IMG/VR virus record: IMGVR_UViG_3300009146_000035 | Location: 1 to 24,968 of that record | Reading direction: 5' to 3' (one strand) | DNA: 24,968 nt | DNA from: a virus | Shown here: in pieces, positions 32 through 5,075 of the stretch | Layout of the letters: each line of letters begins with the position of its first letter | Numbering within the stretch: the first letter of the stretch is position 1 | Made by a program: the position numbers and the translations under genes | The notes under the pieces: generated by a model | Seen by the model: the letters and a program-made list of their open reading frames with translations, nothing else | Told to the model about the DNA's origin: nothing | Databases searched by the model: none

Positions 32-1648
32 ATGGCTGACCCAGTAGTTACGCCGGTCAAGCGGGATCGTCGAGGTGGTTGGAACCGGAAGGCACCGATC
101 CGCGACGACGGGCCAACGGGTCAAGCCGCGGCCCCTTTAGAGCCGATCGCGTTTATCAATCGGCTCACGCACACGAAGGGCCAGTTCGGCGGACAGCGGT
201 TCAATCTGCGGCCGTGGCAACTGCGGATCCTGCGGCAATTGTTCAAAAAACGGCGGGACGGGCTGCGCCAATACCGCACGTGCCTGCTGATGCTGCCGCG
301 GAAGAACGGCAAGAGCGAGCTGGCCGCGGCGATTGCGCTGTACGGGCTCCTGGCGGACGGGGAGATCGGCGCCGAGGTGTATTCGGCGGCGAGCGACCGG
401 GACCAGGCGAGTCTTGTCTTTGGGGTCGCGGCGCAGATGATCCGGAACGATCCGGCGCTCGCCGCGGCGTGTTACATCGTCGATTCCCAAAAGCGGATCG
501 TGCATCCCTCGAGCGGGAGCGTGTACCGGGCGATCTCGGCCGAGGCCTCGAGTAAACACGGGTTCAATAGTTCGCTGGTGGTGTATGACGAGCTGCATGC
601 CGCGCAGGACCGGCGGCTGTACGACGTGCTCGCGACGTCGATGGGCGGCCGGCAGCAACCGCTGTTCCTGGTGATTTCGACGGCCGGGTACGATCGGCAT
701 TCGATTCTGTACGAGCTGTACGCACACGCGAAAAAGGTGCTCGAGAACCCGGCGCTCGATCCGACGTTCCTGCCGATTCTGTACGAGGCGCCGCCGGACG
801 CGGATTGGACGAAGCCGCGGGTCTGGAAGAAGGCGAACCCGGCACTCGGCGACTTTCGGAGTCTCGAGGAGTTGCAGACGCTCGCGGCGCGGGCGCAGGA
901 AATCCCGGCGCAGGAAAACACGTTTCGCCGGCTCTACCTCAACCAGTGGACCGAGCAGGCGTCACGCTGGATCCAGATGGCGGCCTGGGATGCCTGTCAG
1001 GCGGCCCCACGGGCCCGCCAGGCGCTGATCGGGCGCCGGTGCTATGTCGGGCTCGACCTGAGCGCGACGACGGACCTGTCGGCGCTGGTGGCGGTGTTCC
1101 CGGACGAGACCGGGTTCGACGTCCTGGCGCAGTTCTTCGTGCCGGCCGAGCGGATCCGGGACCGCTCGCATCGGGACCGCGTCCCGTATACCGAGTGGGC
1201 GCGGGACGGGCACCTGCAGGCGACGCCGGGCGCGACGGTGGACTACGAGATCATCCGGCAGGCGGTGAAGGACTGGGCGGCCGAGTTTGACGTGCAGATG
1301 ATCGCGTACGACCCGTGGAACGCGACCGACCTCGTCAAGCGGCTGCAGGAGCAGGACGGGCTGGCGTGCGTCCCGATGCGCCAGGGATTCGCGTCGCTGT
1401 CGGCGCCGACCAAGTCGCTCGAGCGCGCAATTCTCGGGAAGACGCTGCGCCAGGACGGGCATCCGGTCCTGCGCTGGAATGTGTCGAATGTGGCGGTGGA
1501 AAGTGACCCGGCCGGCAATCTGAAACCGTCGAAAGTGGCATCGACGGAGCGGATTGACGGCGTGGTGGCGTTGATTATGGCGGTCGATCTGATGGATCGG
1601 AACGCCCGGACGCCCACGAAGCAGTACGCGCTGACGGTGGTGGGATGA
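32..1648 (+). CDS. terL: Phage terminase large subunit (TerL)
   Basis: This is the ATPase/nuclease motor that pumps phage DNA into the prohead and cuts it. The N-terminal ATPase shows a Walker A motif PRKNGKS (residues 89-95), a Walker B VVYDE with D186/E187, and a coupling motif LFLVISTAG (211-219). The C-terminal RNase H-like nuclease shows three well-placed acidic residues: D342 (VGLDLS), D427 (AYDPWN) and D509 (RIDGV). At 538 aa it is full length for the HK97/Terminase_1 family. The ATG at 32 has no clear Shine-Dalgarno sequence. Two frames (1 and 3) upstream are open from base 1 and end at 39 and 47, so the gene before it, expected to be the small terminase, may end there by overlap. It opens the late operon and is followed by a small RHH-like gene and the capsid genes. 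Confidence 0.96.
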   Translation: MADPVVTPVKRDRRGGWNRKAPIRDDGPTGQAAAPLEPIAFINRLTHTKGQFGGQRFNLRPWQLRILRQLFKKRRDGLRQYRTCLLMLPRKNGKSELAAAIALYGLLADGEIGAEVYSAASDRDQASLVFGVAAQMIRNDPALAAACYIVDSQKRIVHPSSGSVYRAISAEASSKHGFNSSLVVYDELHAAQDRRLYDVLATSMGGRQQPLFLVISTAGYDRHSILYELYAHAKKVLENPALDPTFLPILYEAPPDADWTKPRVWKKANPALGDFRSLEELQTLAARAQEIPAQENTFRRLYLNQWTEQASRWIQMAAWDACQAAPRARQALIGRRCYVGLDLSATTDLSALVAVFPDETGFDVLAQFFVPAERIRDRSHRDRVPYTEWARDGHLQATPGATVDYEIIRQAVKDWAAEFDVQMIAYDPWNATDLVKRLQEQDGLACVPMRQGFASLSAPTKSLERAILGKTLRQDGHPVLRWNVSNVAVESDPAGNLKPSKVASTERIDGVVALIMAVDLMDRNARTPTKQYALTVVG

Positions 1649-1659
1649 CAGGAGGCCAC

Positions 1660-1836
1660 ATGACACGCCCGGGCCGGCCGCGCTTGACGCCGGAGGAACG
1701 CTCGACGCCGCTGTCGGTGCGCGTCTCCGCGAAACAGTTCGACGAGACCCAGCGCCAGGCGAGCGAAGCGGGTATGACGATGGCGGACTGGATCCGCCAG
1801 ATGCTCGCCCACGGCAATTTCCGTAAACAAAAATAG
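1660..1836 (+). CDS. Small ribbon-helix-helix-like protein
   Basis: A 58-aa basic protein between TerL and the capsid gene. I chose the ATG at 1660 because AGGAGG (1650-1655) lies just upstream; an in-frame ATG at 1645 overlapping the TerL stop is the alternative. After a basic GRPRLTPEER leader comes a short strand-like stretch (LSVRVSA) and two predicted helices (FDETQRQASEAG, MADWIRQML). This is the layout of CopG/MobC-type ribbon-helix-helix DNA-binding proteins. By position it could bind DNA as a packaging accessory or regulate late genes, but that is inference. The fold assignment is by pattern only. Confidence 0.7.
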   Translation: MTRPGRPRLTPEERSTPLSVRVSAKQFDETQRQASEAGMTMADWIRQMLAHGNFRKQK

Positions 1837-1860
1837 GCAAGCGCCGAGCCCGTCGGTATT

Positions 1861-3732
1861 GTGGCGGTCCACTTGGACCGCGCCTACAGCCTGCTCGAAA
1901 TCAAAGCCGTCGAACCGGCCCGCCGGACGTTCTCGGGTATTGCCTCGACGCCGGAACTTGATCGACAGGGGGACATGGTCGATCCGGCCGGCGTCACCTT
2001 CCGCAATCCGCTGCCGCTGCTGTTCCATCACGACGCCAAGCAACCGATCGGCACGGTGATCCTCACCGCGACGCCGGACGGGATCCTCTTCGAGGCGACC
2101 ATCCCGACGATCGACGAGCCCGGGCCGCTCAAGACGCGGACCGATGAAGCGTGGCAGTCGATCAAGGCCGGGATCATCACCGGCGTGTCGATCGGCCATC
2201 GCGTCCTGGCCGACGGCTACGAGCGCCTGAAATCCGGCGCCCGCAAACTCACGAAAACCGAAGTCTGTGAATTGAGCCTGGTCACGATTCCCGCGAACGC
2301 GACCGCCAGCATCTTGCTCGTTAAATCACTCGCCACACCGAAGAGGACACCTGTCATGAAGCAAACCGCGACCGACCACGTTGAGGCCCTGGAAAACAAG
2401 CGGGCGGCCCTGGCCGCGCGGTTGGGCGACATCATGACCACGGCGGCCGAAGACGCTGCCACGCTCACCGATGATCAGGCGACGGAGTACGACGGGCTCG
2501 AGCGGCAGGTGAAGAGCATCGACGGCGATCTCCAACGCTGGCGCGAATTAGAAAAGCTCCAGATCACCAGCGCCAAACCCGTCACGGAGTTGATCAAGGC
2601 GAGTCCGTATACGCAAGTCTCGGTGCGGCCGAACGTCGAGCCGGGCATCCGGCTGGCGCGCCTCGTGATCGCCAAGCTGGCCGCGCGGCTCGAGAACTGC
2701 GACGCCGCCACCTACGCCGAAAAACGCTGGAACGATTCCACGCCGGAAGTCGCGCTCGCGCTCAAGGCCGCGGTCGCCGCTGGCGACACGCAAAACGCCA
2801 CCTGGGCGAAGCCGCTCGTGAATCCGGCGATCGTTGATGACTTCCTGCCGCTGTTGCGCGCCGCCACGATTCTCGGCCGGATTCAGGGCCTGCGGAAAGT
2901 GCCGTTCAATGTGAATGTCCCGGCGCAAACCGGCGGCGCGACGATCAACTGGGTCGGTGAACTCAAACCGAAGCCGGTGAGCGCGCTGGCGTTGACGATG
3001 GAGAATCTGGGCTTTGCCAAGGTCGCCGCGATCGTGGTGCTGAGTCAGGAACTCGTGCGCTTTAGCAATCCGTCCGCCGAGGCGCTGGTCCGCGATTCCC
3101 TGGTCCGCGACATTGCGGCGTTTCTCGACGGGCAGTTCGTGAACCCCGCGGTCGCCGCCGTCGCGAATGTGAACCCGGCCAGCATCACGAACGGGGCCCC
3201 GACTGCCGCCGCCACCACGAACCCGCTGGCCGACATCATGGGGCTGATCAACCACTTCGCCGCGAACAACATCCCGATCGACAACCTGGCGTTTCTGATG
3301 TCGCCGTCGAATGCGCTGGCGCTGTCGTTTAGGACGAATCTGGACGGCTCACCGGAATTTCCGGGCATCGGCGTGAATGGTGGCAGCTACAAGGGCTTGC
3401 AGTTCATTACGTCGAACACCGTGACCACAAACGTGATCGCGTTGCAGCCGGCGTACATCCTCTACGCGGACGATGGCGGCGTGACGATCGACGCCTCGAC
3501 CGAAGCGTCGATCCAGATGGACAGCGCGCCCGCCTCGCCGATCGATGCCACGACCGTCCTGGCGTCGATGTTCCAGATGAACGCGGTCGCCATCCGCGCG
3601 GAGCGCTACACGACCTGGAAGCGGGTCGGCACCAACAGCGTGAAGTACCTGACCGCGACGGCCTGGCCCTCGCCGACTGGGTTCGCGAACGGTGAAGGCG
3701 CGGAGGCGGCGCGCAAGACGCGCGCGAGCTAA
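1861..3732 (+). CDS. Prohead protease-major capsid protein fusion (HK97 type)
   Basis: One 623-aa frame carries two head proteins that are usually separate genes. Residues 1-155 are an HK97-family (U35) prohead protease. They include candidate catalytic His in LLFHHD (56/57), Ser110 in ITGVSIGH, and the family signature CELSLVTIPANA (136-147). From M166 the sequence is an HK97-fold major capsid protein: a coiled-coil, charged scaffold-like delta region (about 170-235), then the shell domain, ending in a conserved-looking RAERYTTW segment. The protease would cleave the delta region during maturation. The start is the GTG at 1861; no strong Shine-Dalgarno sequence is visible. An in-frame ATG at 2356 with a GAGGA upstream could give free capsid protein of 458 aa. 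The portal gene follows after 5 bases. Confidence 0.93.
   Translation: MAVHLDRAYSLLEIKAVEPARRTFSGIASTPELDRQGDMVDPAGVTFRNPLPLLFHHDAKQPIGTVILTATPDGILFEATIPTIDEPGPLKTRTDEAWQSIKAGIITGVSIGHRVLADGYERLKSGARKLTKTEVCELSLVTIPANATASILLVKSLATPKRTPVMKQTATDHVEALENKRAALAARLGDIMTTAAEDAATLTDDQATEYDGLERQVKSIDGDLQRWRELEKLQITSAKPVTELIKASPYTQVSVRPNVEPGIRLARLVIAKLAARLENCDAATYAEKRWNDSTPEVALALKAAVAAGDTQNATWAKPLVNPAIVDDFLPLLRAATILGRIQGLRKVPFNVNVPAQTGGATINWVGELKPKPVSALALTMENLGFAKVAAIVVLSQELVRFSNPSAEALVRDSLVRDIAAFLDGQFVNPAVAAVANVNPASITNGAPTAAATTNPLADIMGLINHFAANNIPIDNLAFLMSPSNALALSFRTNLDGSPEFPGIGVNGGSYKGLQFITSNTVTTNVIALQPAYILYADDGGVTIDASTEASIQMDSAPASPIDATTVLASMFQMNAVAIRAERYTTWKRVGTNSVKYLTATAWPSPTGFANGEGAEAARKTRAS
2343..2358 (+). 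promoter_or_regulatory. Internal ribosome binding site for free major capsid protein
   Basis: GAGGA at 2343-2347 sits 8 bases before an in-frame ATG (2356-2358). This ATG lies exactly where the protease domain ends and the capsid delta domain begins (MKQTATDHVEAL). A second start here would yield a normal-length capsid protein in excess over the protease fusion, as nested starts do for scaffolds in lambda-type heads. That it is used is inference. Confidence 0.55.
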
Positions 3733-3737
3733 CCGCC

Positions 3738-5075
3738 GTGGGCCTGTTCGACGCGATCCGGTCACGGCTCGGGTCGGTGTTCGGCGCGCGCCCGGTCGCG
3801 ACCACTGGCAATGGGGGCTGGTGGCCGATCGTGCGCGAGCCGTATACCGGCGCCTGGCAGAAGAACGACGAGATCCGGGCCGACACCGCGCTCGGGAATC
3901 CGGTCGTGTTCCGCTGCGTCTCGCTGATCAGCACCGACGTCGCGAAGCTCCGGCTGCGCCTTGTCGAAATCGACGACGATGGCATCTGGACCGAAACGAC
4001 CTCGCCGGCGTTCAGTCCGGTCCTGCGCGTCCCGAACCGCTACCAAACGATCCAACTGTTCCTCGAGCGCTGGATGCTCTCCAAGCTGCTCTGGGGCAAC
4101 ACCTACGTCCTGAAGGACCGCGACGCGCGCGGGGTCGTGACCGCGCTGTACGTGCTCGACCCGGCCAAGGTGACGCCGCTGGTCGCCCCAGACGGCAGCG
4201 TCTACTACCAGGTGCAGACCGACGACCTCGTCGGCATCACGGAACAGCTCGCGATACCCGCGCGCGAAATCATTCACGACCGCTGGAACTGCGTCTTTCA
4301 TCCGCTCGTGGGCTTGAGTCCGCTCTACGGGTGCGGCGCCGCCGCGCAGCAGGGGAAACAAATCGAGTCCGCCTCGACGTCGTTCTTCACGGCCGGCGGC
4401 CGGCCATCCGGGATGTTGGCGCCGCCGGCGGGCGCCGCGGCGATCGATGCCGAGACCGTCAAACGACTGTCTGACGCCTGGCACGCGCTCGGCCCGGGCC
4501 GCACGGCGATCCTCAGCGACCACTTGCAGTACACCGAGGTCGGCTCAACCGCCGTCGATGCGCAGCTGACCGATCAGTACGGGATGACCGTCAAGACGAT
4601 CGCCGGCGCGTTCGGCGTCCCGATCTCGATGGTCGATTCGAGCCAGCAACCGCCCTACGCGAACAGCGAAGCCTCGGCGCTCCAGTACCACAGCCAGTGC
4701 TTGCAGACGCATCTGCTCGGCATCGAGACGGCGCTCGACGCGGGGCTCGAGCTGCCGGCGCCCTACGGCACCGAGTTCGACCTCGACGATCTGCTGTGGA
4801 TGTCCACGGACACGCGCGTCAAGGCGGCGCACGACGCGGTGGCCGCGGGCGTGATGACGCCGAACGAAGCGCGCTTCAAGTACTTCGGGCTGCCGCCCGT
4901 GACGGGCGGCGACAGCTGCCTGGTCCAGCAGCAGTACTACAGCCTGTCGGCGCTGGCCGAACGTGATGCGCAGGCGCCGCTGGCCACACCGGCGTCCCGC
5001 ATGACCGAGCCAGCGCCGCCGGAACCCACCGAGGAGACGGTCGCCGCCGCGGTCGGTGACCTGGCGACCTCATGA
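3738..5075 (+). CDS. Phage portal protein (HK97 family)
   Basis: A 445-aa portal, the dodecameric ring at one capsid vertex through which DNA enters and leaves. The sequence matches the HK97-type portal family. It has an N-terminal NPVVFRCVSLIS segment, a WGNTYVLKDRD core strand, the FHPLVGLSPLYG stretch, the FGVPISMVDSSQQPPYANSE region with a conserved asparagine, and the late NEARFKYFGLPPVTGG segment typical of the clip-to-crown part. The C-terminus is acidic and proline-rich. The start is the GTG at 3738, 5 bases after the capsid stop. Its TGA overlaps the next ATG (ATGA), so the two are translationally coupled. Placement between capsid and connectors is as expected. Confidence 0.95.
   Translation: MGLFDAIRSRLGSVFGARPVATTGNGGWWPIVREPYTGAWQKNDEIRADTALGNPVVFRCVSLISTDVAKLRLRLVEIDDDGIWTETTSPAFSPVLRVPNRYQTIQLFLERWMLSKLLWGNTYVLKDRDARGVVTALYVLDPAKVTPLVAPDGSVYYQVQTDDLVGITEQLAIPAREIIHDRWNCVFHPLVGLSPLYGCGAAAQQGKQIESASTSFFTAGGRPSGMLAPPAGAAAIDAETVKRLSDAWHALGPGRTAILSDHLQYTEVGSTAVDAQLTDQYGMTVKTIAGAFGVPISMVDSSQQPPYANSEASALQYHSQCLQTHLLGIETALDAGLELPAPYGTEFDLDDLLWMSTDTRVKAAHDAVAAGVMTPNEARFKYFGLPPVTGGDSCLVQQQYYSLSALAERDAQAPLATPASRMTEPAPPEPTEETVAAAVGDLATS

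Follow-up and report, generated by a model that had tools for sequence, protein, structure and literature searches.

The window, by which we mean the whole 24,968-base IMG/VR virus record analysed here, carries a protease and a capsid protein in a single open frame (1861–3732, plus strand; GTG start, 623 aa), as a sequence-only reading of this DNA had described. Pfam matched Peptidase_S78 at residues 50–154 of the product and Phage_capsid at residues 319–596, the NCBIfam protease match ended at residue 156 with the capsid match beginning at residue 178, and the match to phrog_617 spanned the whole fusion (positions 8–626 of 626). The gene thus has the single frame over both domains expected of an S78 prohead protease–capsid fusion of the phrog_617 type, together with the conserved protease histidine and serine, H53 and S106 (numbered from TTG 1873). 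These two residues were invariant in alignments of 23 and 39 rows, and we take them to be the catalytic residues of the protease. Against the NCBIfam model for prohead protease/major capsid fusions (NF045541), the product scored 38.3 bits, below the curated cut-off of 525. A terminase gene and a small NikA-like gene flank the fusion on one side and a portal gene on the other. The NikA-like gene (1645–1836), between terminase and fusion gene, encodes a 63-aa protein that could bind DNA and regulate the neighbouring fusion start region. The features of the locus are as follows.

1857–1862, plus strand: TATTGT, a -10-like hexamer starting 16 nt upstream of TTG 1873 (clade-wide motif fit)
1873–3732, plus strand: protease–capsid fusion gene, probable start TTG 1873 (619 aa), alternative start GTG 1861 (623 aa)
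2008–2322, plus strand: Peptidase_S78 protease domain (Pfam match; invariant His and Ser)
2290–2355, plus strand: linker, of low model confidence and of variable sequence and length in relatives
2343–2347, plus strand: putative internal Shine-Dalgarno (SD) sequence GAGGA (sequence, relatives and codon resampling)
2356–3732, plus strand: predicted nested capsid frame from ATG 2356, 458 aa (border start codon in 167/167 fused relatives, same column in 15/15 split relatives)
2368–2571, plus strand: two long predicted helices, delta-domain-like (AlphaFold2 model; profile match to residues 3–71 of 9gyi_B)
2815–3648, plus strand: HK97-fold capsid domain (Pfam Phage_capsid match)

The in-frame ATG at 2356 (codon 166 of the frame from GTG 1861) and the GAGGA that precedes it at a spacing of 8 nt were both found where the sequence-only reading had put them, and its placement of this ATG at the domain border held as well, between the protease and capsid matches. 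In the AlphaFold2 model of the fusion (mean pLDDT 75, pTM 0.44; residues from TTG 1873), protease strands extend to residue 137, residues 140–162 are of low confidence, and long helices follow at 166–193 and 200–233, with the nested methionine, residue 162, at the end of the low-confidence linker and just before the helices. The capsid part matches HK97-fold capsids, and profile positions 183–251, right after the nested methionine, match residues 3–71 of the independently encoded major head protein 9gyi_B. The nested methionine sits where a delta-domain-bearing capsid protein would begin. Nine in-frame Met codons of the window gene were scored for their SD: ATG 2356 ranked first (-5.8) and ATG 1975 second (-5.3), and an SD as strong as that of ATG 2356 arose in 3.9% of synonymous codon choices for the window alone. 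The two starts of the window gene score alike (TTG 1873, -5.5; ATG 2356, -5.8), the score of TTG 1873 coming from a non-classical G-rich stretch, and the advantage of the internal start is not extreme in the window.

Relatives were gathered by scanning with the window protein, which yielded 76 IMG/VR loci, and with an alignment query, for which the best 80 of 544 IMG/VR matches were kept; in a later search the best 80 of 600 were used. Bacterial genome contigs yielded no relative when scanned with the single window protein and 39 loci with the alignment query. Nine phage records were added. A copy of the window (L077) and 12 truncated loci were left out before counts were made; including the window, the 194 sequences comprised 167 fused, 15 split and the 12 truncated ones. 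Removal of near-duplicates at 90% identity reduced the 167 fused genes to 128.

The internal site, whose loss from functional relatives the sequence-only reading had named as evidence against it, was retained across this sample. A start codon was present at the border in all 167 fused genes, as ATG in 165 and as GTG in two copies in Hydrocarboniphaga that read CAGGAGGGCAAC followed by GTG; linker length varied from 7 to 51 residues. Several long linkers in distant members (L027, L136, L147, L151, L087, L078 and others) have the motif 'AASG' in common, in many cases with 'PGVSG' after it. An SD core, defined as at least 4 nt at a spacing of 3–12 before the start, preceded the border start in 111 of the 128 non-redundant genes, compared with 135 of the 1361 remaining in-frame ATGs in these genes; for two of the 17 genes without it (L017 and L024), the absence is due solely to scoring the second of two Met codons. 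Predicted folding was also weaker around the border start than at other in-frame ATGs (-8.3 vs. -12.9 kcal/mol).

The split relatives carried the same start. In all 15, the separate capsid gene opens with an ATG aligned to the nested methionine; this start scores -4.5 or below in 13, and the gene overlaps the protease stop by 4 nt in seven. In one phage record (Stenotrophomonas phage SOVA965, L083, 2181–3586), the capsid gene is annotated as two overlapping pieces in different frames, reflecting a frameshift that is either genuine or a sequencing artefact. The tree, built from 64 capsid parts (the window, 22 random rows of the 102 IMG/VR representatives, all 26 others and the 15 split genes), required at least eight changes between fused and split states, six of them forced by well-supported branches. 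To judge from this tree, the genes have fused and split repeatedly, and the capsid start has outlasted both kinds of change.

This recurrence bears on the strongest alternative, that only a 1:1 fusion is made, that the protease cleaves itself from every subunit as in a polyprotein, and that the border methionine and SD are relics of formerly separate genes. Recurrent fusion and fission would make some fusions young, and the part of PMC8508860 that deals with phage MD8 describes one protease–scaffold–capsid gene with no nested start. A relic would decay, yet the start codon was kept in every fused gene, and the SD was kept beyond codon expectation in registers that vary from clade to clade, including a deep IMG/VR clade in which all genes are fused. 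We therefore consider exclusive 1:1 synthesis unlikely.

The codon expectation came from synonymous resampling (400 draws over the 128 genes), in which a mean of 47 and at most 60 border starts reached -5 kcal/mol or below, while 99 were observed. The corresponding z was -10.8, a value which, like the other SD z-scores reported here, overstates significance because related sequences are treated as independent, although linkers and SD registers differ widely among clades. At six other conserved Met columns, z ranged from +0.4 to +5.6, indicating that SD-like codons are avoided or neutral there. The GG of the SD core occupied all three codon positions (68, 23 and 20 genes) and the encoded amino acids differed, so that the core is not dictated by the protein sequence. 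Lysine, glutamate, glycine and arginine, whose codons allow SD-like triplets, are common just before the border methionine, and one could suppose that the methionine and its purine-rich codons serve the protein, as a linker or cleavage site, instead of initiation. We regard this as very improbable: entropy was 0.07 bits at the border residue and 2.5–3.5 bits at its neighbours in the 128 genes, the rare substitute for ATG was GTG, another start codon, and resampling left the SD unexplained. That the open fusion reflects a sequencing or assembly error that deleted a stop codon is hardly credible, since one frame was kept in 167 of the 194 sequences through linkers of many lengths, even though a stop or frame change separates the two parts in some relatives. 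Comparison among relatives thus establishes a putative internal initiation signal that is under selection and homologous to the capsid start of the split genes.

The start of the fusion itself differed among clades. In the IMG/VR clade to which the window belongs, a start codon lies two to three codons ahead of an R-A-Y-S motif in 94 of 98 genes; in the window this codon is TTG 1873, and for this reason the fusion probably starts there, rather than at GTG 1861, and is 619 aa long. An SD of -4 or below was found for the fusion start in 13 of the 98 genes and for the internal start in 79, the internal start being the stronger in 90. In the proteobacterial clade, by contrast, the fusion start reached -4 or below in 23 of 26 genes, and the internal start was stronger in only 11. 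Upstream of the fusion start, the IMG/VR clade has a -10-like motif (TA, C/T, A/G, C, T) that mostly begins 13–19 nt before the start codon, a spacing at which transcription would begin no more than a few bases away from that codon. A consensus scan for sigma-70 promoters over 1500–4000 of the window found no full site; the call rests on the clade-wide motif fit (log-likelihood 124 vs. 13–15 in shuffles). The motif suggests a near-leaderless promoter for the SD-less fusion start in this clade. We also considered, and rejected, a conserved hairpin in the RNA ahead of the fusion start: its arms look palindromic in many rows, yet the mean folding z was only -0.8, with 12 of the 98 IMG/VR representatives below -2, and we make no claim of a family-wide RNA structure. 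In four genes (L020, L034, L036 and L130), a hairpin of some 16 pairs in the 40 nt before the fusion start abuts the start codon and is very strong (folding z between -7 and -8.7).

Taken together, the border start codon, the SD core and the starts of the split capsid genes support the proposal of the sequence-only reading that the internal ATG supplies free capsid protein: very probably, the fusion gene also makes the capsid protein alone from its conserved internal start. We assign a probability of roughly 0.85 to the reading that one gene yields two proteins with a common C-terminal part. The full-length protease–delta–capsid fusion would start at TTG 1873 (or GTG 1861), and free delta–capsid at ATG 2356, behind its own SD in the linker. 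Free capsid protein would be the main product; the fusion would join the prohead via its own capsid part, carrying the protease inside, and the protease would then cut off the delta domains and free itself, leaving uniform mature subunits. Fusion would thereby target the protease and the nested start would hold its dose low, with the stoichiometry presumably set by the two starts. We infer an excess of free capsid over fusion from the pattern in the window's clade and from the ATG against the TTG; against it stand the similar scores of the window's two starts and the proteobacterial genes, of which just 11 of 26 have the internal start as the stronger one.

Two other kinds of fusion gene emerged from a search of 99 Enterobacteriaceae genomes with NF045541; near-duplicates were removed at 95% or 90% identity, and two incomplete genes (L227 and L241) and the L199 row, represented by its copy L295, were left out. 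Genes of the first kind, L199-type, have Peptidase_S78 at 65–157 and Phage_capsid at 365–625, and two conserved methionines, the first just past the protease and the second ahead of the capsid domain, were each preceded by an SD in 14 of 14 representatives (resampling z -6.6 and -7.0). This arrangement of two SD-preceded internal starts marks L199, L200 and L295–L310, whose genes possibly encode three nested products. Their match to phrog_617 is weaker than that of PAJU2, and they may represent an early-diverging branch of the S78 lineage to which the phrog_617 fusions belong. Genes of the second kind have CLP_protease at 32–174 and Phage_capsid_4 at 350–654, and one conserved methionine with an SD just after the protease was found in 22 of 23 representatives (z -4.6), among them Gifsy-2, MD8, mEp460 and Pasteurella and Providencia phages; a distant Synechococcus phage was without it. 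Naming of these ClpP-type genes varies by phage record (head maturation protease, terminase protein, Nu3, major head protein). ClpP and S78 proteases have unrelated folds, and so the nested-start arrangement probably arose at least twice.

Protease–capsid fusions are known already, as are nested starts, from lambda C/nu3; our search, confined to the open-licence literature, turned up no description of nested capsid starts within protease–capsid fusions, and supports such an absence weakly. We think it fairly likely that protease–capsid fusions, in the three sampled groups and with two unrelated protease folds, are two- or three-product genes rather than 1:1 polyproteins, in which ribosome-binding sites hidden at domain borders make the bulk of the capsid or scaffold–capsid protein and the annotated full-length product is a minor, self-packaging form of the protease. 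L199-type genes would give three nested proteins from two internal starts, and in the window's clade the fusion would come from a near-leaderless promoter and the capsid from an SD start. The stoichiometry of such fusions is a puzzle, since each of several hundred shell subunits would carry a protease. A conserved nested start would resolve it and suggests how the protease enters the shell without a separate targeting signal. If this holds, the start of the main capsid product is missing from the Gifsy-2, MD8 and PAJU2 records consulted here. The prediction is precise, naming N-termini that can be tested on cultured phages.

The closest known systems include PAJU2 ORF003, annotated as 'prohead protease fused capsid protein', together with other phrog_617 fusions (JLK-2012, FSL SP-016, RHph_X2_26), at about 40% identity to the window. 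They likewise join an S78 protease to an HK97-type capsid and have a border ATG with an SD; their annotation has no nested start, and their fusion starts have a strong SD, in contrast to most of the window's clade. The ClpP-type genes of Gifsy-2 and MD8 resemble the window in having one frame, protease first and capsid last, with a conserved methionine and SD after the protease. They differ in their unrelated protease fold and in a long middle region, so that their short product would be scaffold plus capsid, which in MD8 would come from the single gene described for protease, scaffold and capsid. HK97 has an S78-type protease and a capsid whose N-terminal delta domain acts as scaffold, as set out in the relevant parts of PMC8508860 and PMC10275583, encoded by two separate genes (4 and 5) where the window has one fused gene. 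In lambda C/nu3, as annotated, an in-frame nested start yields a C-terminal partner without the protease, as we propose here, and the window gene likewise has an in-frame start at the domain border, with initiation signals that are conserved in its relatives; the lambda partner is a scaffold and that of the window a capsid protein. The annotated nu3 start scored weakly (-2.7), and the score can therefore miss real nested starts. Herpesvirus UL26/UL26.5 resembles the arrangement proposed for the window in placing the protease on a co-terminal fusion made alongside the free partner; it differs in having the scaffold as that partner and in making the short form from a separate transcript.
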